Positions 10,067 to 61,964 of a stretch of 64,000 nucleotides of DNA are shown in pieces. The stretch spans positions 354,604 to 418,603 of the forward strand of contig JAAOMT010000226.1 in the NCBI GenBank assembly GCA_016748015.1, written 5' to 3'. This DNA comes from Geosiphon pyriformis. Taxonomy: Eukaryota > Glomeromycota > Glomeromycetes > Archaeosporales > Geosiphonaceae. How positions within the stretch are numbered: the first letter of the stretch is position 1; each line of letters opens with the position of its first letter. The notes under the pieces were generated by a model that saw only the letters and a list, made by a program, of their open reading frames with translations, was not told where the DNA came from and made no database searches. Both the position numbers and the translations under genes were made by a program.

Positions 10067-11412
10067 TTACCAGGCACGTAGACCCCCAAGGATAGGTGAT
10101 GAAGTCACTGTGGGATTTTCAACTGAACTAACAGAAGAATGTCGTTCATAAGGATCTTCAATATCATCATTATGATCTTGCCCATGATGTTGATGAGCTG
10201 GGAGAGCTGAATCTCCAGCTTCGGCTTGTAAAGCAGCGGCTGCTAACATGTCTAAAGTTGGATTGTATTGAAGTCCTGGATTGGAGGAATCATGAAAATT
10301 TGATTGATGATGATTTGGATGTGACAATTGGGTGGTTGAATGTTGTTGCTGTTGTGATTGTGTTGATTGTTGCTGTTGCTGTTGTTGTGACGATGAGGAT
10401 GATGAGGATGATGAGGATGATGATGAAGCTGGTGGTGGTGGTTGTTGTTGTTGGGACTGCTGCTGCTGCTGCTGTGGATTTATTTGATGATATGTCGTTG
10501 TTGTTGTAGTTGTTGGGTATCCAGGAAATTGAAGGGTTGTTGTACAATTAGAAGCAGGTGATTGGTGAAAAAATTGGGGATGATGAAATGCTGCAGCAGT
10601 TGCCTGCAAATGAGTTGGTGTTGGTGGTGAAGGAGCATTAGATTGAAAAATTGGAAGAATTGTATAAGGGGATGCAAATTGTGCGGCACTCATATAAGTT
10701 GTGGCAACTGGTAAAAAACTTTGAGTTGCCAATTGCAATTGTCCATGATGCGAATGCTGCTGTTGTTGATCTTTATCGGATGATTGAGTTGATGTGACAT
10801 TATTATCATGATGATGGTGATGATGATGATGATGTTGATTAGGATGATGATGTTGATTTGTTTGACGTGGATCCTCCGTTGTAGGAGAAAGCATCGCAGT
10901 TTGAGAATTAATTCCACCTTGAAGGACATTATTCGGAAACATTGTCAAATTATGAAAATATATTGCACCACCACCTGCCGTTGAAGAAATTGGCATTGGA
11001 ATGAGTTCAGGACTATAACCATCAAGTTGTGACATTCCTGAACTCATTGAAGTTGGTTGTGGATTATTTTTTGCCTTTTGACGTTGATTTTGAAACCAAA
11101 TTTGAACTGTTCTTGGATGCATATTCAATGCATTTGCAAGAGCTTCTCGCATTTCTGTTGATGGAAATGAAGTTACGGCTAATACTTTTCGAAGTACTCG
11201 AGATTGATAAGGTGAAGTGACGTTTCGTGATCTCTTTCGACGAGCGTTTGAAAGTAATTCTTGATTCTTTGGATTCTCTTCGTTAACAGGAAAAACCATG
11301 GTAGCATCTGTGACTTGGTTCACAATTTTCATATCTAGATCACTTTCATTATGGTGATGATGATTGTGATGATGATGTTGATTATTATTATTATTATTAT
11401 TATTATTGTTAC

Positions 11413-11457
<45 letters not shown>

Positions 11458-11881
11458 TAATATGAAGTCCATCATCACCATTTCTATTGATACCTATTGA
11501 TAAATGATGATCGTTCGTCTCGGTTGGCGAAGAAGGTGGCCAAACCCTTGTAGCGAATAAATCAGCAGGAGGTTCTCCTGATTCCTTAAGAATATGTTTT
11601 AAAAGTATGACTTCGGTTTGAGTGAAACTTCTGTTGACGCTATAACTAGACCTATAGCCTGGTGTAGGGTCAGGATATTTTGGTTTTCTTCCTCTACGTT
11701 TTTGACGTTCTCCATCTTCAGCATTCGCGTTCAACGTATTCGAAGACATGTCCAAGAGGTCACCAGTTGGTCCAAGTTCTGTATTTATTTCTCTTGGAGA
11801 GGAACTCTGAGAAGAGTTTGTGGTATTCGAAGACGAGTTCGTCGAGCTCGTTATTTGATGTTCGGTATCAATCAAAGACAT
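10067..11881 (-). CDS. Homeodomain transcription factor with AT-hook-like motif and homopolymer tracts
   Basis: A 604-residue single-exon frame with ATG at 11881 and TAA at 10067-10069. Residues 61-70 contain RGRKPK, an AT-hook-like DNA-contact segment. Residues about 212-272 form a homeodomain: basic N-terminal arm ARRKRSR and recognition helix containing WFQNQRQK, with the DNA-contacting Asn of WFQN kept; the Gln after it replaces the commoner Arg. The rest is low-complexity: poly-Asn about 142-167, His runs about 168-177 and 344-358, and Gln, Thr, Pro and Ser runs in 455-525, typical of AT-rich fungal regulators. The C-terminal region would be a disordered activation or interaction region. 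It is a nuclear DNA-binding regulator by family; its target genes cannot be told. Large triplet-repeat content makes its length prone to allelic variation. It stands alone, with no second homeodomain gene beside it, so calling it a mating-type gene is not supported. Confidence 0.93.
11376..11458. repeat. Coding (ATT)n tract (poly-Asn) in the homeodomain gene
   Basis: ATT/ATG triplets read as Asn (and His next to it) on the minus strand, in frame with the homeodomain gene. Confidence 0.9.
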
Positions 11882-23227: not shown

Positions 23228-24595
23228 TTAAACTGAACAAAGACCCATCTGGTAGCCAAAGTATGGTCCATAATGTGAAGAAATACCTTGAAATCCGTAC
23301 TCCACTTCACTATTATTACATACCTAAATAATATTTCAAAGATTGATTTTTACAAAAATAAAGAAATGGCTTCAAAAAAAATGAATACAATACTTACCGA
23401 GCTCTCATCCAGAAATTTATAATGGGAGCTCATCTTACCAGGGCATTCATAAATAAGATATTCAGAAAACTGTGATCCTACTGGTGTATCGCATTCACAA
23501 TTATGCGAAGTAATCCAGTACTCTGTCTCGTGATGCATATAACCTGCGGTTTTTAATGGCACCTGTGGCACGTAGTCATAGGTATTTGTTATACGATACA
23601 ACTTTGGAATCTCACTTTCGACATGTCTCGCGAATTCCAAGTTTCCAATTCTTGGTTGACCATAGGTATATATTTCAATCTTCAATCTTCGGCGTTCCAG
23701 TTGTAAAATTAGGCCTGTAAGGACCGCGTATACTAGGGTGGATTGATTGAATGAATAACTGTTTTTATTTAGGTAACGGTTTTATCACGAATTTGAGGAT
23801 AAAGCTGTTAAAAACTCACCACCACCTACACCGTGCCCAGTTAAATGAAGAGAAGATCTCGGTCTTGAATCCAACAGTCGTCTTATCCTTTTGAGAATTT
23901 TTTTTTTTGCAATTTTAAAAGCATCCATGAATTCTGATTTTATCATTGCTCCAGGAACTTCTAGATATGGCTTTTGATGATGAATAATGTATCGCCATTG
24001 ATCGAATTCTCTTTCTTTGCCTCGAAAATATGCAATAACTTGATTTTTTTTTTTGCCTCGAAAGGAATAGGCTAGAGTTAAAGAAGCATATATTCTAAAT
24101 AGATGATTTTTATTTGATGTGCAAGCTTTTTGACATGAAAACTCGTAATAAAAAGTGTATACCATATACAGGGTTCTCCGAATGCCCTAGATTTTTAGAA
24201 AGACAATAAGCTTTTTTAGCGATAAACGCAAAATTCTTGAATCGTGTAAGTAGTTCAGGATTAGTGATTAGTCTTTTTGGGTTCTCTTGATCCCTGATCA
24301 TCCAAAATCGATTTCGTTTATGGCTTTTGATAATGGAAATATTTTTTTTTAACGATAAATCTAAAGAAATGTTCATAAAACTTTGTATCTTGGATCTTTG
24401 AATAACCGACAAAAAGCTATTATTTTCTAAGACTAGATAATTTTTTTCAGACATATTCTGGCTATTAAGTTGTATTGTGAAGATGGGAATTTTCGAAAAC
24501 AAAAGCAAAAATACAAGGAATAATGTCGTCACAGTTATGATGTTTGGCCTTAAAAAATTATTAAAAAGTAACTTTGATAAAGAGGAAGAAATCAT
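23228..24595 (-). CDS. Class-3-lipase-like protein B, catalytic Ser replaced by Gly (4 exons)
   Basis: My exon model on the minus strand is 24595-24163, 24071-23820, 23732-23398 and 23323-23228 (371 residues). Introns are 91, 87 and 73 bases with GT..AG ends, and all three sit at the same positions and phases as in gene A. Residues about 18-38 form one hydrophobic N-terminal segment (signal anchor). The core reads NQVIAYFRGKEREF, then GHGVGGVYAVLTGL, YGQPRIGN, a T-Y-D-Y-V-P segment and HHETEYW. As in gene A the nucleophile is Gly (225), with Asp281 and His295 retained. Both proteins end in a related Cys-containing segment with SSH-GPYFG. A 37-base first intron is also possible but would add an unmatched insert; the 91-base intron restores alignment with gene A. 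Probably a tandem-inverted duplicate of gene A, now strongly diverged. Confidence 0.85.
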
Positions 24596-26591: not shown

Positions 26592-27623
26592 ATGAGTTTT
26601 AACGAAAAAAGTGATCAAGGTAGCCCTACAACTGAAGAACCTCACCTCATTAAAGGAAATCCTCAAGCCCAACAACCTTTTTATATTCTAACAAACTCTC
26701 AACCACAGCAAATTCAAGGAAATCCTCAAGCCCAACAACCTTTTTATATTCTAACAAACTCTCAACCACAGCAAATTCAAGGAAACTTTCAACCACAGCA
26801 AACTCAAGAAAACTTTCAATCACAGCAAACTCAAGAAAACTTTCAATCACAGCAAACTCAAGAAAACTTCCAACCACAGCAGACTCAAGGAAACTCTCAA
26901 CCACAGCAAACTCAAGGAAACTCTCAACCACAGCAAATTCAAGGAAACTTTCAATCACAGCAAACTCAAGGAAACTTCCAACCACAGCAGACTCAAGGAA
27001 ACTCTCAACCACAGCAAACTCAAGGAAACTCTCAACCACAGCAAATTCAAGGAAACTTTCAATCACAGCAAACTCAAGGAAACTTCCAACCACAGCAGAC
27101 TCAAGGAAACTCTCAACCACAGCAAACTCAAGGAAACTCTCAACCACAGCAAATTCAAGGAAACTTTCAATCACAGCAAACTCAAGGAAACTTCCAACCA
27201 CAGCAGACTCAAGGAAACTCTCAACCACAGCAAACTCAAGGAAACTCTCAACCACAGCAAATTCAAGGAAACTTTCAATCACAGCAAACTCAAGGAAACT
27301 TCCAACCACAGCAAATTCAAGAAAACTCTCAACCACAGCAAACTCAAGGTCAACACCTAAAGGAAAAATGGGAATTTGCTACTGCAGTGATAAAATTTTT
27401 CACGTAAGAATTTATGAAAAATATTTCAGTTTGTTAATAGAAAGAAAAAACACATTTTTTATCTTTTAAACCTTTAAATTTTTGATTCAAAAGTCAATGT
27501 TGCTCTTGCCTGGAAAATAATGAAAAATTCCAAGCAAAGAAGGAAGAGTTAGATTCAAAAATAAAAGAAGCATCTAATAAATATCAGGAAACTACACAAA
27601 TGAATATTCTCCCCACCCAATAA
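26592..27623 (+). CDS. Gln/Asn-rich tandem-repeat protein (2 exons)
   Basis: Exon 1 starts at ATG 26592. If read through, a stop follows at 27405, directly after a GTAAGA donor at 27404. Splicing 27404-27493 (90 bases) joins exon 2 (27494-27623) and gives about 313 residues. Residues 1-21 are a short acidic lead. Residues 22-63 hold two copies of a 21-residue unit containing QAQQPFYILTNSQPQQ. Residues 64-252 are 21 nonapeptides of consensus G-N-[FS]-Q-[PS]-Q-Q-[TI]-Q. The tail (LKEKWEFATAVIKFF, then Cys-Cys-x-Cys and a Lys/Glu helix) is unique. The repeat part is probably disordered and Gln-rich, possibly aggregation-prone. No enzyme domain is seen; function unknown. The 3' end is uncertain because coding-like sequence (QEFLFHNEQILQKISE near 27740-27805) lies downstream and might be another exon. 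Confidence 0.6.
26781..27347. repeat. Nested coding minisatellite: 27-base unit in 108-base higher-order repeat
   Basis: Twenty-one in-frame 27-base units. Four-unit blocks of 108 bases (FQS, FQP, SQP-T, SQP-I types) recur about four times almost unchanged. The minus strand is also open across the array, a consequence of periodicity. Confidence 0.95.
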
Positions 27624-32230: not shown

Positions 32231-32640
32231 AAACAAATTAAAATATAAAGTATTAAATTATCTAAAAATATGTTAATAGAACGATTAAATTGGGAAATAA
32301 TAAAAGCAAAAATATTCGATTAATTTTAACGTGACTATGTAAACAGTTTAAACTTGACTTTCACTAATTTTTAATAAAGTTCCTATTCGGCTCTTCCACC
32401 GATATGATTCTCCACAGATTTCAGTTTTAGTCAGAGTATTACTCGTCAACTGAATCATCAACCCCTGAAGAGTTCACATAATCGAGCATTGACCGGTACC
32501 ACTACCATCGTCTGGATCACCGGTTGGTCCTTTAATAGACCCGTTTCCAGGAGCGATAATTGAGAGAGGATTGAAGGAGGATTGAGAGTTTGTTGTTGGT
32601 TGCATTTTTCTTCAAGTTATTTGATTTAATTTGAATATGA
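32231..32640. repeat. Left arm of inverted duplication carrying a CaaX-peptide gene
   Basis: 32231-32605 is the reverse complement of 34939-35313 over 375 bases with two differences that I can find. Similarity continues, weaker, to about 32640 and then meets the adapter-like 19-mer. The outer edge (AAACAAATTAAAATAT) is abrupt. Confidence 0.93.
32474..32605 (-). CDS. CaaX-terminated 43-residue peptide precursor, copy 1
   Basis: ATG at 32605, TGA at 32474-32476. The protein is identical to that of the plus-strand copy at 34939-35070. The only base difference within the gene is a silent GAT/GAC at Asp30. It ends in C-S-I-M, a classical CaaX box; Met at X favours farnesylation. The upstream DNA is broken by a Tn5 mosaic-end 19-mer only 45 bases before the ATG, so its promoter, including the TATAAAA box seen for the other copies, is not represented. 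It may be a genuine paralogue or partly an assembly product. Confidence 0.6.
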   Translation of the reverse strand: MQPTTNSQSSFNPLSIIAPGNGSIKGPTGDPDDGSGTGQCSIM

Positions 32641-32650
32641 TGGTTTTTTC

Positions 32651-32669
32651 CTGTCTCTTATACACATCT
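32651..32669. other. Exact Tn5/Nextera mosaic-end sequence (sequencing adapter remnant)
   Basis: CTGTCTCTTATACACATCT is the complete 19-base Tn5 mosaic end used in transposase-based libraries. A chance exact match in 64 kb is very unlikely. It marks a probable chimeric or collapsed join in the assembly. Confidence 0.95.
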
Positions 32670-32760
32670 TCAATTGAATGGTTAAAGGATAATTATTTGC
32701 GTTATTATGCATAGTCGATAAAAATGTAAATTTTTATTCATCAATTCCTTACTAAGCACG
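32670..32760. repeat. Second, shorter segment of the inverted duplication (left)
   Basis: TCAATTGAATGGTTAAAGGA and the following roughly 70 bases match the reverse complement of 34275-34365 almost perfectly before fading out. On the right side about 570 bases separate this segment from the gene; on the left only the adapter-marked join does. Confidence 0.9.
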
Positions 32761-34264
32761 ATACTTTTTCTTGGAAATTTTCTAGATTAAAAAAAGATAT
32801 GCTAAAATTGCCATTTTTAGAAATCACTTGATTTAGTATAAATTTTTACTTGTGATTTTTCTCATTTTTCTAGCTATTATAGATCAATAAAGTTATATTT
32901 TTCTGATATTGAGTCGAAATGGAAAGAATTTGAATATTTCATCTAATAGAATTTTATAATTAGAAAAGTCTTCATTTCACTTAGTCAAGTGTGATCTCAA
33001 CAATTCTGGATCTGAATCTTACTAAATAAATCTTTGAGCTTTAATTTATGGAGTGGTACATTTAAATGAATTGTCTTTTGTCGCGAAACCTAGAGATAGT
33101 AACTGTCCCAGTTTGGGTGGTCACGTCACTAGCAAGTTTAACATTTTATTTAGGAATAATTTTATTATGAAAATTTATGAAGCTAAACCCTAAAGTAAAA
33201 TTCAATGTCTTGGCAGTAAGAAACGTTTAAATAACCAAAAAAAATTGTAATTTTTTGATATGAAGTAACGATTAACTCAAATTGACTTTAATGACTTCAG
33301 TTCATTGAAAATTTTATTAAAATATCCCTTTTTTTAATTTTATTCGATCTCAAGAATAAAAAATTAGAACAATTCAGCTCTCAAATAGTTTGAAATTATT
33401 CATTTAATTTTTTTTGCTAAAAAACTAGGTCTTAATTATGAATTCAATTAAACGAATGAAAAATTATTTATACAATTTTCAATCAAGAATAGAAAAAAAT
33501 GTAGTTGAAATTTCTCAAAAATAAAAACTTATACATGAAATGAAACAAGATTCGATTTATGAAAGTTGATTGTTTAGTGTAAAACCTGTGCTCTTTAAAA
33601 GATTCATTGAGAACAATCATTGAGTGATTGTTACTATTTTGCATTTTGAGAGAACTATTTCATATTTCTCTCTCGGCATTTCTTGAAATAAAATTTTACG
33701 ACCTCAATTCTTTCAAGTATTATTGAAAAGAACAATGTTAAATCCGACTATACAATCTCGAACTCAGAATGTAATAATTTAAAAACGGATAATAAGCCAC
33801 TATCAAATTTTAAAATACATGAATAGGTTTCCAGTCAGAAACATTAAATAACAAGGTAATTGTATCATCATGCAGTTGGTGAACTTGGTATTATTTATTC
33901 TATTGAAATATACTAAAACTTATGTTTGAATTTTCTTAGCTGCCCTTTTGGTTTTTGGAATAACATTTTCAATGTTTAAATTTTCTAAAAGAAAAGCAGT
34001 TGAATTATTACTCAAGTTAATCTCTCCTTGAAAATAATATTAAATCTAAAAATTTGTGGCTCTTCAAAGTAAGAAATATGAAATTTTTGTAGCACAGGGA
34101 CCAGATGATGCAACTAATACAAGATAGTTAGTACAATATTTTGGAGCTAGAAAGGTTGGAAAAAGGAATTTTATTAACATCAAAATTCAAGATAAGATTT
34201 AAAGATATCTAATTGTCTTCTCGCTGTGTTTGATATTATGGATGGGAACTTGGAATTATTATTG
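32761..34264. other. AT-rich spacer inside the inverted duplication
   Basis: No open frame or motif was recognised. Confidence 0.5.
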
Positions 34265-34274
34265 TTCTGAGTCG

Positions 34275-34366
34275 TCTAGCAAGGAATTGATTAATAAAAA
34301 TTTACATTTTTATCGACTATGCATAATAACGCAAATAATTATCCTTTAACCATTCAATTGAGTTTT
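34275..34366. repeat. Second segment of the inverted duplication (right)
   Basis: Reverse complement of 32670-32760. Confidence 0.9.
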
Positions 34367-34815
34367 TAAACTTGAAGAATAAAGTTTGATATTTATTTTA
34401 CTATAAAAATTCTTAATTAGCTGCAAAATATATTGCTTTGGCTTAGGACTTTAAAGTTATAAAGAAATTTGTGATAATCAACATTTTAAAGTAACGCTAA
34501 CTAGCATTGTTTATAGAATACAGGTATTTTTGGTCATATTGTTTAGAGAAACCTGTTTATTCGATTATAAATTCAATCACTTGCATTTAATAAACTGTAA
34601 TAACTGTGATCTATCACCTTATATGGTTGAATAACCACATTGTTATAAAGATATTTAGGACATTGTTAGCATAGCTTAACAATGTGCGATTATACTAATG
34701 TGACTAGCCTGAACAATAGATTTTAAAATTAAAATTTTATCATTCTTATTTATTAATATTGTTTTAAATGATAAATGGTGAGAAAAGTTAAAATTAAATT
34801 TATGGTTTTTTTTTC

Positions 34816-34822
34816 TATAAAA
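34816..34822 (+). promoter_or_regulatory. Probable TATA box of the plus-strand CaaX-peptide gene
   Basis: TATAAAA 123 bases before the ATG, preceded by T-rich TTTTC. The diverged third family member has TTTCTATAAAA 152 bases before its ATG. Confidence 0.5.
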
Positions 34823-34899
34823 CGAGATGTACCTTTCCGATATTTTCTTTAATCCAAGTAAATTGATTAAAAAAAGGAGAAAGTAAAATCACAAATACA

Positions 34900-35313
34900 A
34901 CTCTTAACTTTGAAACTAAATCAAATAAATTAAAGAAAATGCAACCAACAACAAACTCTCAATCCTCCTTCAATCCTCTCTCAATTATCGCTCCTGGAAA
35001 CGGGTCTATTAAAGGACCAACCGGTGACCCAGACGATGGTAGTGGTACCGGTCAATGCTCGATTATGTGAACTCTTCAGGGGTTGATGATTCAGTTGACG
35101 AGTAATACTCTGACTAAAACTGAAATCTGTGGAGAATCATATCGGTGGAAGAGCCGAATAGGAACTTTATTAAAAATTAGTGAAAGTCAAGTTTAAACTG
35201 TTTACATAGTCACGTTAAAATTAATCGAATATTTTTGCTTTTATTATTTTCCAATTTAATCGTTCTATTAACATATTTTTAGATAATTTAATACTTTATA
35301 TTTTAATTTGTTT
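34900..35313. repeat. Right arm of inverted duplication
   Basis: Near-identical inverted copy of 32231-32640. Orientation places the two peptide genes head to head about 2.3 kb apart. Confidence 0.93.
34939..35070 (+). CDS. CaaX-terminated 43-residue peptide precursor, copy 2 (pheromone-like candidate)
   Basis: ATG at 34939, TGA at 35068-35070. The N-terminal part (residues 1-23) is rich in Ser, Thr, Asn and Gln, followed by Gly/Asp-rich residues and the C terminus GSGTGQCSIM. Cys40-Ser-Ile-Met is a CaaX box predicted to be farnesylated, cleaved and carboxymethylated at a membrane. Length, polar pro-region and terminal CaaX match the architecture of fungal a-factor-type lipopeptide mating pheromone precursors; that function is inference. 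No receptor, CaaX protease or exporter is nearby. Support for a real gene comes from the near-identical inverted copy with only a silent change, the related copy at 37077-37238, higher GC than flanks, and a TATA box at a suitable distance. It could instead be a small prenylated protein of another kind. Confidence 0.75.
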   Translation: MQPTTNSQSSFNPLSIIAPGNGSIKGPTGDPDDGSGTGQCSIM

Positions 35314-55419: not shown

Positions 55420-58400
55420 CTATACAGTTATATGAACAGAAACAAAGTCATTTATACCCAAAAAAAATAAGCATGATTCACAAAAACCAAAATAAACACC
55501 CAACACCTCAGCAATGCCAAGCAATTTGACCACACCAGCAGAAAACCCTGAAGCCAAACCTGAAACTGTTATAAGAACCAAATCATCCAGTGGAATTAGA
55601 TTGGTTTTCTCTATATAGGCTTGATATTTAATTCAGACCAACCAGATATTATCTCTAAAAACGAGACCAAGAGATTTCACAAACTTAACAACCTCCAAAC
55701 CAGCCACCTTTGGATTATGAAAGACGGAGACAGCTTCGCAAAACCAATTATTAAACACAAAATCCTTATAAAGAGCCATAGAGACTGAAAAATCAGAAAC
55801 ACAAGATAATAACAACTGCAACACATAAGAAAAAAAATGAGATAAACCAGAAAGAGTTTTCCAAGAATTGACATGAGAGTCCAATATATAGGATTGAGTA
55901 GAATTGTCAATTTTACAAAAGAACACGTGATCTGAAGTCTCCATCTCACCACAATATAAACAAAGCACACCAAGATAATGGCTGTTGTAGAGGCGCTTCT
56001 GAACTGCAACAGGAAGCCAATGATGCAAAGCTTTCATAAAATAAGTATGGATGCCAGCTGAAAGTTTGCTAGTAAAACTGGTGGCCATATGCAAATCAGG
56101 ATGCCAAACCAGCAAAAAGCAGGGCCAATCTACCTTAGAAAGCAAGCTATTAGCCAAGAACTTAGAGCCAGAACCAACTTCCCAATGTGTGTGACAAATG
56201 GAGTGATAAATATCATGAACAAAATGTCTGGAATTTCCAGAAACTACACTATTATCAACAACTATAAAATAATCATTCAAGCAAGGAATAAGACACTGAC
56301 CAGAAAGAGAAGCAGCATCAACAATTAAGTCAGCATGCTCATTTCCAGAAACGCCAGAGTAACCTTTCACTTTGTGCCAACTGACACTTAAGTTCTTACA
56401 TCTAACAACATTTGCAATATGTCAGTACTCTACCCAGCACTGATTGTGAAAATCTGGACACACAAGACTCAATTCAGACTTGTATGCATCCAGAGCAGAT
56501 TGACTATCTGAGAACAACTGAACAGAACTAGATGCGGAAACACACTCCAAGGCCAATACAATAGCCTGTAATTCTGCCAGAGTAGATGACATCAAACCTG
56601 AAACACTAATACCAAGGCCCAAACCAATGTTCTCAAAAAAAGCAGCAGCATCAGCCCTATAGCCTGTTGTGCTCAAATTCTTTAAAGATCTATCTGTGTA
56701 TACAGATATGTCACTCAATCTAACACGAGAAAAACAGTCATGAATAGAAACAAAATCATCAGAATTAAAGATGTTCAAAGAAACAGCACCATCTGAAGCT
56801 AAAGAACCAGCAGAGGGAGAATTCACACTATTGAAAAAAGCCGTAGTGAGCTTGAACCACTCAGGAATAGGGCCATGAGGGTTGAGCCTTTTCCATTGCT
56901 TGAAGGTGTACCAATCAAATATGGCACCACAATGATTACAAAGTTGATCCACGAAAGCAACATCGAACCTCCAGAGAGAAGGGAGAGACCTGAAAAACAT
57001 CAACTTGCCCAGAACAGAAGACATAAGAATGCTACCGCAGGACCAAAAAGAGTTGGCCAAAAAGCCACCTAAAGACAAATTGCAATCAAGAAAAATACAG
57101 ACCATGTCTGCCAAAAAGTTATTAGAAGCACTGACATGAATACAAACAGGAGAACTCAATGGATGAACAGGATACCAACACCAGACTTGTAAATCATGAA
57201 ACCTATGCACAAACAGGTGATTTAAAATCCCACCAGAATTCACAAAACTGACAAGAGAGACAACCTTGCATTCAAACTGAACTTGCAAAAAAAATTTCAA
57301 ATCATAAAAAGAAGAGTGATGAAGTGTATCACTAGAAAAATTGAGGGAGAGACCAGACTTAAGCTTCAAGTTCTTATGAATCAGAGCATTCCATTTGCTA
57401 CAAACACTGACTGAAACAAAACTAAATTGTGTATAATAACTGACTATGAGTTGGAGAACTGCTGACACCAAGTATAAAAATTGTTTATTAAAAACAGCCT
57501 TTTTTAGAACGAAATTGACAAAAAATCAAATGTCCAAATGTGCTTTAGCTAAACTAGGTCTTGAAAGACCCTCAGTTAAAAAAAAATACCCAGATACTGA
57601 TAAAACCCCCCCTTTTTGGCAATAGAGATGGGTGAACTACTGATAGAAAGGAAAGGACTACTGACCTAACTATTGATCAGAATGGCCACTGTTTTGTCAT
57701 TATTAATTAAAATATCATTAATCCAAAAAAATTTATTGGCAACATTAAGAATATGTTGAGTAGCAGTCTGATTGCTACCAACCCAAATTGTGTCATCAAC
57801 AAAAGCACCAGCAGCAAAAAAAGAAGAGAGCCCAGCCTGAGATTCAGGACAACCACTTTTGAAGACAAAATAAGAGTTTAACCTGTATTTACATATACTT
57901 TTCTGTCTTTTGACCTCACAGAACAGAGGATCATAAAATATGCACCACAGAAGTGGAGAGAAAACTTCCCCCTGATCCAAACCATCATGAACACAATAAC
58001 CATCAGTCAAACCAAAATCTGTCATAACTTGGTTGGTACAATCTCTGTAAATACTACCAAAAAATTGAATGAATTTGCTACACATCTTAATCCTAATTAA
58101 ACTTTTCTTGAGATGCTCCCAGCCAACTGAATTATAAGCCTTTTACATGTCCTGCAAAACCAGCCAGAGTTCCTGGTTCTTCTCCAAGGCATCTTCAACT
58201 ACTAAACCGATAGCGAAAATGGGAGACTAAGTAGTTGTACCCTTTAAAACCGAAAAATTGTCCCCACAAAAAACATTAAAAGCACTGCAGACTGCAGAAA
58301 TCTTATTAGAAAGAACCTTGGAAAGAATCTTACAAGCTGTCTTGAGTAATACAATGGAACATGTATTAGTTAAAACACCCTTTCACTCATAAGGTTTGGG

Positions 58401-60036
58401 AATCATTGAGACCCAAGCCTTTTTCCAAGGACTAGGTACAGATTCACCAGTCAAACAAGAATTTAAAAGCACCAACAACATGTCCAAAACCAGCTTATCA
58501 CAATGTTTCAAAAGTTTATTAGATATCCCCAACAAACTAGCAGCTTTGCCATCAGGAAGATCAGAAACTACCCTAAACAATTCATCAAAACTGACTGAAT
58601 TCATTACACCAGAAAAGGCTTCATCAAAAACATACTCCAATGGATGGTATTGGCAGCACCAATCATTTGAAACACTACCAACTACCCAACATTTTCTGGT
58701 CCAACCTTCCATGATTATGTCCACCTTAGACCTAACCAAATCAGGTTCCAAAATCAGTTCATTATCAACAACCAAGTGATCGAGCACCACCTTACAAAAC
58801 AGACATTTAAACATGCTTCTTATTGTGTGACCCTTATTCACTTTAAAACTCTTCATCCTTTTATCAATAGCAGACCTAATATTTGCGTCTTTAGCACACT
58901 GAGATTTAGCAAGCTTTGATGCATGATAGGATTTTCTGACATCTAAAAGAGCAGAACAAACATGACCAAAGTTCATACCAGAAGTTATCATAGACTGAAT
59001 GACCGAAGCTCTATCACAATCCAAAGAATTCCAACATCTCATAAGAGAATTGAAACACTCAACATCCTTCCCATAAGACACCTTGATAATCTTAGAAACT
59101 AAAAGCTCCAACTTGTGAAACCTTGAAAATTCTTTGGTGAAGACCTCATCAAAGCCCCTGAACCACTTTTTTTTGAACACTTTGTTTGCCAAAAGAACCA
59201 TAATTTTGCGAATAATCTCCCACATAGCATCTAGATCTGAAAACTTTTCTGATGCACAAAACTCATTTGCGAACATTGTGACATTATTTAATGTAGCACA
59301 CCTAAAATTAACCCATTTATTTTTATTAGCACTCTTGAAATCAAATTTCCATCTGTCCCTGTTCACTTGTTTGCAAAGAGAGTTCAACCATGTATCCAAA
59401 AGCCCACCCAAACCCAAAAACACAGAAACAGCCTAATAATCTGTGTCAAAATGCTCACTGACATCCAAAACATTATAATACACTAGCACATTAACCAGAT
59501 TAAGAGAAATGGCTCCCAACCAAAGAATTAACCAGCCCCAAATCAAGGCATTTTTTAAAACTAGCACACCTACAAGTTCCATCTTTATTAAAATCACCAC
59601 CAAAAACAACAAAAGAAGACTCATTAACAGCTCTTGTGATAAGAGAATTGATCACATTAGCCTGAGAAAACCAAACTGCCACAGATGCACCAGTGTAGAG
59701 TCCCAAAATTGACACTGAAAGTTTGTTTTTGAAAAGCAATTTAATGAATAAGAGCTGACTTGGCATCTCAGAGACTTTATATACATGTCTAGCTAAAGAA
59801 GAGTTCATAATAATTACAACACCAGCACTCAGATAACTAGAATCCAGACCAGAAGTAAACACCTGAACACCAACAAATCTGTTGGTTATTCAGGGTTGTA
59901 TCTTTCCTTTAAGCTTTAACTCCATAACAATAGAAATAAGATTGTTTATGTCCTTGTGCCAACAAATAACATCATTTTGTTTTGCAGAATTGTTCATTCC
60001 ACAAACATTGTATGTGACAATTTTCCAGATCAGCTC
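55420..60036 (-). pseudogene. LINE ORF2: endonuclease, reverse transcriptase, RNase H (broken)
   Basis: The endonuclease begins near 60020 (VTYNVCGMN), continues through GGDFNKDG near 59590 and ends FDTDY, where the catalytic His of the usual D-H pair is Tyr (59436-59438). An in-frame deletion-like gap removes about 40 residues before it. The RT part reads LPDGKAASLLGISN, IPKPYE-stop, then LQDM-stop-KAYNSVGW: the domain A Asp is Asn at 58131-58133. GLDQGEVFSPLLW and AFVDDTIWVG (57778-57810) are retained. RNase H reads VYTDRS near 56700, TLAELQAI, LFSDSQSALDA and KGYSGVSGNEHAD, with His changed to Tyr. The C terminus has C-L-Y-C-G. Beyond a TGA at about 55631 the frame continues to a TAG at 55420-55422. 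At least one frameshift lies near 57.6 kb. RNA copying and target cutting would be the family role; this copy is dead. Confidence 0.9.
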
Positions 60037-60041
60037 ACTTA

Positions 60042-61964
60042 TTAAGAAAGGGTTTGTGAGGACACATTACTTGCTAAAACCAAACTATCGAAGTGAGCAG
60101 ATAAGCTCAAAACAGATTTGGAGAGTCCTTCCAACATTTTTTCCAACTTAACAACATGAAGAGATGCCGAAAAGTCTACAATCGTAGCAGTTTCATTACT
60201 AGTAGCTTCATCCAAACCCACTCTCATTACTGTATCCTCTTCTTGAATCTGAGATGGGGGGGTCACCGGCAGCTAACATCCAGGGCTAGGCTGGAAAACC
60301 ATCAGTACGAGTAAATTCAACCTTTTAGTCAACTCACTAATCTGACTCATGAGATCAACGAGACTGCTCTCAATACTGACTAAACAAATCTCTAAAACAC
60401 TACCAACAAGAGGAATAGGTTTATCACTATTGACAGAACCAAGTAAAAGTGGACTACCAGAAAGTGCACAGAAGGAAGATTTGCCAATCACATCCACCCA
60501 AGTTTTTCCACCAAAAGCCAAAGGCCTAAAAACAGGCGCAGATTTTTTCTTGTAAATTTTGGCCAATCTAAACTTATCTTGGGCTGAAAGAGAAGCCCTC
60601 TTGCTCTTAGGAATAGAGGACATACCAGCTGATTTACAAACCAAACTTGAGTGACTTAGGGAATTGCAAACAGAACATAAAGAGGTGACCAAATACAACT
60701 AGTCGAGACCAATGCTTTTTATAACTGGTGTATTGGCCACAGCCTAAGTCATGTTATCTTCAAAACCAAAACACACAGTAGCACATCCTGTGTGAGTATA
60801 ATTAACAGAGTTGTGTTCAAACAAGCATGTTTTTTCACCCACAAAACCAATGAAATCTTACAAATCATGAGCCATTGTTCCCATAGGAAGAATATAGAGC
60901 AACACCCTAAATTTATCCCTAATATCTCATGTCTGTTTATTGATGTCAGCTCTGGCCACATGAATTGCATTTTTACCAATGAGGATTAACTATTCAGCAG
61001 CCAACAGATTAGCCTGACTTTGATCTTTCAATTTGATGATTGCCTTTTACCATAAACCCACCCATTGCATTTTGATCATTTTAATTTGTCCAAATACAGA
61101 CACAGCCTCAATAGAAGTTCTCACAGGAATCTCTTTTAACACAATTGTCTGATTCGTATGGTTGTTTACAGGGCATTTGAGATCAGTGTTTACCACAACA
61201 CCATGATTATTTGCCAACTTCCCAGCAGCCATCATTGCCTTTTCTGAAGTAAAAGTCACACGAATAATTTCACCAAATTTTGAGGAAGTAGAAACCCCCC
61301 CAAAACTATTTACACTTGAAAAAATTTTCCTGATAAAACTCAATTTTTCTTGAGAAGACTTTCCAGTGATGGTCACAAGATTAATATCTAAAGCAAAGAA
61401 TTTGTGAACAGACATTTGAATGGATGGTTTGATAGGTAAAGGGGGCGGAAGAAGAAAAGAATCATCTAACATGTCATCGTCTGTATTGACAGTATCATAA
61501 TCAATCACACCCAGAGGCTTCTCTAATACCTTTTTGGTCTTTACACACAAACCTTTTGGCATTTAATTAGAATCTCCTTCCGCAAAAGCACCACTCTCAC
61601 CATAGTCAACACTGGTTTCTTCAACCAAACACTCCTCTTCCATGTCAATACTCTTAGACTCAGTAATGTCACCTGTCTCAGAACCCCATAAACGAGCACC
61701 AGAAGTTTCAGCAGCAACCCTTCTATTATCAATACCCTCTGCCAATACATCTTTCTTCCTCTTTTTCCTCAATGCAACTGTCTTGAAACCACTCTCAGAA
61801 CCAGAAACTTTAATAGTCTTCTTCATAACAGCAATAACAAGACCAACAGTGGCCTTATAATCAAAGAATGGTTTTGATTTATCATACTGAATGGTAAAAA
61901 ACTTCTTTCGAAAAAACTTTTGACTCTTTTTTGAGAATTTTGGATGAAAGAAAGAAAGAAGTTT
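60042..61964 (-). pseudogene. LINE ORF1: nucleic-acid-binding protein with CCHC zinc knuckle (broken)
   Basis: Coding sense can be followed in one frame from about 61964 (KFFRKKFF upstream of the first ATG at 61826) to TAA at 60042-60044. Stops interrupt it at 61563-61565, near 61045, 60990, 60930, 60860, 60745 and 60700. Features in order are a Lys/Ser-rich start, an acidic segment (MEEECLVEETS), a conserved block FALDINLVTITGKSSQEK and GEIIRVTFTSEKAMMAAGK, a zinc knuckle C-S-V-C-x4-H-x4-C near 60640-60680, and FRPLAFGGKTWVDVIG. ORF1 proteins bind element RNA. Nearly all stops fall where Trp, Gln or Arg is expected. Confidence 0.88.

Follow-up and report, generated by a model that had tools for sequence, protein, structure and literature searches.

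Does the 64-kb stretch of the Geosiphon pyriformis genome analysed here (the window) carry a gene for a lipopeptide pheromone? Two short frames within it raise this question, as both encode one peptide with a C-terminal Cys-a-a-X (CaaX) box. Mycorrhizal fungi and their kin have long been regarded as ancient asexuals, and sex has not been observed in the group to which Geosiphon belongs. The taxonomy record assigns the species to the Glomeromycotina, order Archaeosporales. A survey published in 2013 on Rhizophagus and G. cerebriforme recovered one STE3 gene, STE6 and the greater part of the kinase pathway but no peptide pheromone gene, and it called for new methods (PMC3834313). As the initial annotation had stated, the frames at 34939-35070 (+) and 32605-32474 (-) are real and have the identical translation MQPTTNSQSSFNPLSIIAPGNGSIKGPTGDPDDGSGTGQCSIM, 43 residues long and ending in CSIM, with a single, silent nucleotide difference between them. 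The window holds 324 frames of 20-130 amino acids, four of which end in a loose CaaX box, and the two frames in question are among these four. The N-terminal part of the peptide reads as polar and rich in Ser, Thr and Asn, and by inspection it starts without an apparent signal peptide. With a probability of about 0.72, we take the frame to belong to a Geosiphon family of about 30 genes that would encode precursors of a farnesylated signalling peptide of the a-factor type.

Searches of the organism's own assembly returned 36 matches at the DNA level and 37 at the protein level, the weakest of the latter at 26.8 bits. Thirty-four copies are full-length, 33 of them intact and one frame-shifted, with DNA divergence relative to the window copy reaching about 18%. 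The peptide gene proposed initially is real, but it belongs to a large family and is not one of just two genes. Same-strand runs of copies are found on contig C380 (11 copies within 75 kb) and, as looser clusters, on C241 (5), C216 (6) and C283 (3). Some copies are near-duplicates: 3 kb are common to C380:949k and C241:315k at 98% identity, 5.6 kb to the copies on C394 and C160 at 94%, and 1.1 kb to two of the C283 copies at 99%. Allowing for likely redundancy and for the suspect left copy of the window discussed below, we arrive at about 30 distinct genes. Divergent relatives of the family were also seen at L026 4199-4328 (-), L028 4158-4262 (+) and L027 4212-4277 (-); they comprise one intact frame with 79% identity, one frame with a CLIM end that has no start codon, and one C-terminal fragment with a CSIM end.

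The copies vary in their DNA far more than in the peptide they encode. Among the 33 intact copies there are 29 distinct nucleotide sequences and eight peptides, and a single peptide is common to 24 copies. The CSIM end is retained in all 33 (the frame-shifted copy is not counted here); Gln39, Cys40, Ile42 and Met43 are invariant, and changes at Ser41 are silent only. An in-frame stop codon follows directly after CSIM in 33 of the 34 copies, and 25 of the 34 have an upstream in-frame stop within 12 codons of the ATG. Over the 528 pairs of intact copies, the mean proportion of synonymous differences (pS) is 0.387 and that of non-synonymous differences (pN) is 0.017, a ratio of 0.044. Minimum changes against the consensus were counted with four near-duplicate copies excluded and with an expected synonymous share of 24%. 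In the remaining 29 copies (27 distinct sequences) at least 49 synonymous changes stand against 23 non-synonymous ones (p = 1e-15), and after removal of the two most divergent sequences the numbers for the 25 distinct sequences are 46 and 7 (p = 3e-22). Past the stop codon sequence conservation falls off; the flanks diverge while the coding sequence and blocks of the promoter are kept. The peptide is thus under purifying selection at the codon level, far beyond what chance would give.

Relatives of the peptide exist in a second genus. With an alignment of Geosiphon sequences only as the query, a protein database search found P0010 of Ambispora leptoticha (E value 8e-12), and a second round with P0010 included in the query added P0011 (5e-20) and P0012 (2e-8). 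The taxonomy record places Ambispora in the same order but in another family. All three models share one 18-kb contig and keep GPT[GS]DPNDGNGSTQC, after which they continue with VIM, IIC and LQL and then run into unlike tails. As for the conservation of Cys-a-a-X in orthologues, which the initial annotation had named as a test, Gln-Cys is kept in three out of three Ambispora proteins; CVIM is a clear CaaX box, and the forms with IIC and LQL may or may not be such boxes in the genomic DNA. The database proteins that match the peptide in Geosiphon are hypothetical proteins. A Pfam search with the peptide at E values up to 1 returned no family, and a comparison with solved structures returned no match to the peptide.

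The credible window copy (34939-35070, +), which consists of 43 codons and a TGA stop and has the C-terminus Cys-Ser-Ile-Met, is preceded by a conserved promoter. A TATA box, CTATAAAA, lies at 34815-34822 (+), 124 nucleotides before the ATG, and the exact element is found in 30 of the 34 copies. Further upstream, a block at 34639-34763 (+) with five ATTGTT/AACAAT sites, which resemble the M-boxes bound by HMG-box proteins, is conserved between diverged copies. Comparison of 14 diverged copies, hand-picked from the 34, yielded the common blocks cATTGTT...TTAACAATG, gAA[CT]AATAa, TTTTTAaCATTcTG, TATTGTTTC, CTATAAAA and GTGC-TTCCCAA. The density of AACAAT/ATTGTT is 3.6 per 230 nucleotides in 33 promoters versus 0.63 in 780 background windows from the same loci, and three or more sites are present in 29 of the 33 promoters versus 5.5% of the background windows. 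Similar sites are seen in the fission-yeast genes mfm1-3, a three-gene family for a farnesylated pheromone whose promoters carry ACAAT cores upstream of the Ste11 boxes, at the place assigned to the M-boxes to which Mat1-Mc, a mating protein of the HMG-box type, binds (PMC1693924; the M-box positions are taken from its text and Table 3, the underlining not being visible). In contrast to mfm1-3, Geosiphon shows no general conservation of the neighbouring Ste11 box AACAAAG, which occurs in the last 60 nucleotides before the ATG in seven of the 34 copies (six on C216 and one on C283). The M-factor peptide of Schizosaccharomyces pombe itself is not known to be related to the Geosiphon peptide.

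The peptide resembles the a-factor precursors of Saccharomyces cerevisiae. In an ungapped comparison of residues 1-31 with MFA1, the sequence of which is recognised by Pfam over its full length, 11 positions are identical (M1, Q2, P3, T5, S15, N21, I24, K25, G26, D30 and P31), and both peptides finish with C-x-I-x. None of 200,000 shuffles reached this 11-identity register. We had noticed the likeness to MFA1 before testing it, and the following p-values are uncorrected for that choice: 0.0002 for global and 0.0018 for local BLOSUM62 alignment with MFA1, 0.0028 for MFA1 at any offset without the MQP start and the CaaX box, and 0.003-0.012 for MFA2. The features in common with MFA1 and MFA2 are a short precursor starting with MQP-T, Asn21 and xxIKGxxxDP in the MFA1 register, and a C-terminal CaaX box. 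In yeast, the a-factor precursor is cleaved after Asn21. The mature yeast pheromone is given as YIIKGVFWDPAC-farnesyl-OMe (PMC7035247). The Geosiphon peptide differs from the yeast precursors in having seven extra residues between DP and the cysteine, in the absence of the hydrophobic FW core and in ending with CSIM instead of CVIA. The gene numbers also differ, with about 30 in Geosiphon versus two in S. cerevisiae.

Other known systems share part of this architecture. The lipopeptide pheromones of basidiomycetes (PF08015) are encoded by multi-gene families of short CaaX precursors and are sensed by STE3 receptors; Geosiphon is alike in combining many short CaaX precursor candidates with STE3, but its one peptide is near-invariant and not diversified, and its STE3 gene lies on another contig. 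PF08015 had no matches in the genome, and as the control genomes were likewise unmatched, this does not show absence. Putative a-factor precursors of Leotiomycetes and Sordariomycetes, as far as described in PMC10569646, are alike in size (45-64 amino acids in Leotiomycetes), in their Ser/Thr-rich start and in their CaaX boxes, CSIM among them; they were found by similar criteria and are mostly unannotated. In comparison with those precursors, the Geosiphon peptide lacks a Gly-Tyr motif near the C-terminus, comes from another phylum and is encoded by far more copies.

A receptor of the STE3 type, for which the initial annotation had suggested looking, is present. Two exon matches in the profile search of the genome correspond to one STE3 gene at C303:334886-335808; with the exons joined by eye this gene encodes 526 amino acids and matches all 292 positions of the Pfam profile at 237 bits. 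The 30 kb around it contain two frames of CaaX mini-genes without visible relation to the family. The STE2 profile gave no match in the genome, nor in the control genomes, so that absence is not shown. Among the enzymes for CaaX processing we found Ste24, in a match that runs through three stops, presumably introns, as well as ICMT and, at two places, prenyltransferase alpha repeats. In yeast, human farnesyltransferase achieved complete modification of each of the boxes CSIM, CLIM, CIIM and CVIM (PMC11152559).

The idea that the frame encodes a lipopeptide pheromone candidate gains support from the invariant CSIM end, the Gln-Cys kept in Ambispora, the differing exits of the annotated models described below and the presence of STE3. 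The following course of events may be envisaged. HMG-box regulators would drive transcription of the genes via the AACAAT sites. Farnesyltransferase would then modify Cys40, after which the last three residues, SIM, would be removed by Ste24 or Rce1 and the cysteine methylated by ICMT. Cleavage of the N-terminal part, perhaps behind Asn21 as for the a-factor of yeast, would yield GSIKGPTGDPDDGSGTGQC-farnesyl-OMe. Finally, a Ste6-type transporter would export the lipopeptide, which the STE3 receptor would sense, be it in mating or in the self-recognition and fusion of hyphae.

The initial annotation had described the two frames as a head-to-head pair; this arrangement is probably an artefact. 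The second frame (32474-32605, -) lies in the left arm (32231-32608, -) of an inverted repeat, the right arm of which (34936-35313, +) contains the credible gene; both arms measure 378 nucleotides and are 99% complementary. At 32651-32669, 45 nucleotides upstream of the ATG of the left copy, stands an exact Nextera/Tn5 mosaic end. Directly after it starts an 85-nucleotide arm (32670-32754, -) of another inverted repeat, with its partner at 34277-34361, inside the 378-nucleotide arms. The exact mosaic-end sequence occurs at 99 places in the assembly (51 and 48 by strand), and the reversed pattern, used as a control, at none. Between the mosaic end and the left ATG lie 45 nucleotides that agree fully with the 5' region of the copy on C353 and not with that of the right copy. 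The left copy also has neither the exact CTATAAAA TATA box nor a nearby AACAAT site; the right copy has the TATA box and the conserved upstream sites. Of note, the exact TATA box is also missing in the C353 copy and two others, and its loss alone is not decisive for an artefact. Because of the mosaic end, the C353-like 5' stretch and the missing promoter sites taken together, we consider the pair to be probably a library or assembly chimera, in which the left copy has no promoter and only the right copy represents a genuine gene at this locus. As a functional unit the pair was rejected as a probable artefact on these grounds; the mosaic end occupies the position expected for the left copy's promoter. 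Local joins at mosaic-end sites of the Geosiphon assembly should be regarded with distrust.

The CaaX box might be an illusion created by reading an unspliced exon, as the initial annotation had allowed in considering a longer, unrelated transcript. Eight genes of the family carry NCBI models of 50-76 amino acids with C-termini other than CSIM, so that all eight Geosiphon and all three Ambispora database models are at least 50 amino acids long and end differently; moreover, in 31 of the 33 intact copies the final ATG-TAA can be read as a GTAA splice donor. Longer models thus do exist, yet their exits from the frame vary in position (after CSI in four models, after SGT in one and after DDG or DD in three) and lead into mostly unlike tails. 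When the 568 nucleotides downstream were scanned with one loose pattern, which diverged forms could escape, exon DNA for the KALTQEL tail was detected behind two of the 34 copies. Together with the stop after CSIM in 33 of 34 copies and the fall in conservation behind it, this led us to reject the annotated spliced proteins, which we consider very improbable. The longer models are probably annotation artefacts, forced by a minimum-length rule, and the CaaX box is likely the true C-terminal end. Even more improbable, to the point of being negligible, is that the copies form a repeat or transposon family with an incidental open reading frame: the many copies, their runs on C380, C241, C216 and C283 and the inverted duplicates are in line with this, but we rejected it on the codon-level selection, and the diverging flanks around a persisting coding sequence and promoter blocks speak against it as well.

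What remains to be weighed is the role of the peptide. It could be a small prenylated protein anchored to membranes inside the cell, or an effector of symbiosis, with no relation to STE3. A C-a-a-X end alone is not exclusive to pheromones, as noted in PMC10569646, and the conservation extends over the whole length of the peptide, beyond its C-terminal part. We nevertheless find this improbable for a peptide of 43 residues that has no Pfam match, a Ser/Thr/Asn-rich start and an in-register a-factor signature, in a genome with a gene for a lipopeptide-type receptor. The other alternative overlaps with the pheromone reading and differs from it in role only: a farnesylated signal derived from a pheromone may now serve hyphal fusion, self-recognition or quorum-like sensing, its tie to mating lost. 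A universal self-signal would account better than two mating types for a near-invariant peptide in about 30 copies and a single receptor, and co-option of pheromones is described for other fungi (PMC10569646). On the other side, the AACAAT-rich promoters resemble those of pheromone genes under mating-type control, and in roots colonised jointly by two Rhizophagus isolates, genes with mating homologues are up-regulated, although no up-regulation of pheromone genes was found in that study (PMC7490403). On balance, a purely non-sexual role appears rather unlikely. That the peptide supplies the ligand so far missing from the glomeromycotan pheromone pathway and acts as a universal self-signal, for fusion or for mating, is a tentative proposal and rather less likely than not.

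Several observations weigh against an a-factor-type pheromone. A single near-invariant peptide and a single receptor are by themselves insufficient for mating types. Judged by eye, the N-terminal region and the presumed mature part are conserved to about the same degree, which sets the peptide apart from many pheromone precursors, and the KLCE[NK] stretch is common to the tails of four of the eight longer models (P0003, P0004, P0007 and P0008). The likeness to yeast is weak for Ambispora (p = 0.05-0.15 in local and 0.009-0.02 in global alignment with MFA1/MFA2), and MFA1 was, as stated above, chosen after the likeness had been noticed. The family is unmatched by PF17317 (MFA1_2), for which a genome search gave eight weak places, none over the cut-off and none within the family. 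Protein database searches, which short unannotated genes escape, found relatives only in Geosiphon and Ambispora and none outside the Archaeosporales. The STE3 gene resides on another contig, and its upstream 700 nucleotides contain no AACAAT or ATTGTT and no shared promoter elements. Rce1 had no match in the six-frame genome search, which can miss genes split by introns; this matters because in humanised yeast a-factor-CSIM supported mating with human Rce1 but not with human ZMPSte24, which did not cleave it, according to the results given in PMC11152559.

Elsewhere in the window, about 23 kb from the CaaX gene, lies a gene for a homeodomain protein of 604 amino acids (10067-11881, -), a canonical match to PF00046 at 55 bits. 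A class 3 lipase fragment (PF01764) at 23785-24595 (-) has an overlapping frame upstream, the two being perhaps one intron-split gene. The frame at 26592-27407 (+) encodes a protein of 271 amino acids, mainly repeats such as QPQQTQGN, without a Pfam match. A run of broken frames at 56422-61562 (-) resembles a decayed non-LTR retrotransposon; its RNase H match is weak and below the cut-off.

In the literature searched, no precursor gene for a lipopeptide pheromone is described for this mycorrhizal group. A 2019 survey notes that, outside Mucoromycotina and Blastocladiomycota, pheromone chemistry is for the most part unknown in early-diverging fungi, and it describes a different kind of candidate in Rhizophagus irregularis, namely KEX2-processed repeat proteins with alpha-factor-like processing sites (PMC6339444). 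As far as the literature was searched, the Geosiphon peptide would thus be the first candidate precursor of a lipopeptide pheromone in its phylum. Its copy number of about 30 would, if true, exceed the a-factor gene numbers quoted for ascomycetes in PMC10182648, which are at most three in yeasts and up to seven in Huntiella. With a defined peptide sequence, a predicted lipid and a named receptor, synthesis of the compound and a test in yeast are feasible, and the question of sex or self-recognition in this group would, if the reading is true, become a ligand-receptor assay. Should the peptide be homologous to a-factor, lipopeptide pheromones would predate the split from the Dikarya.

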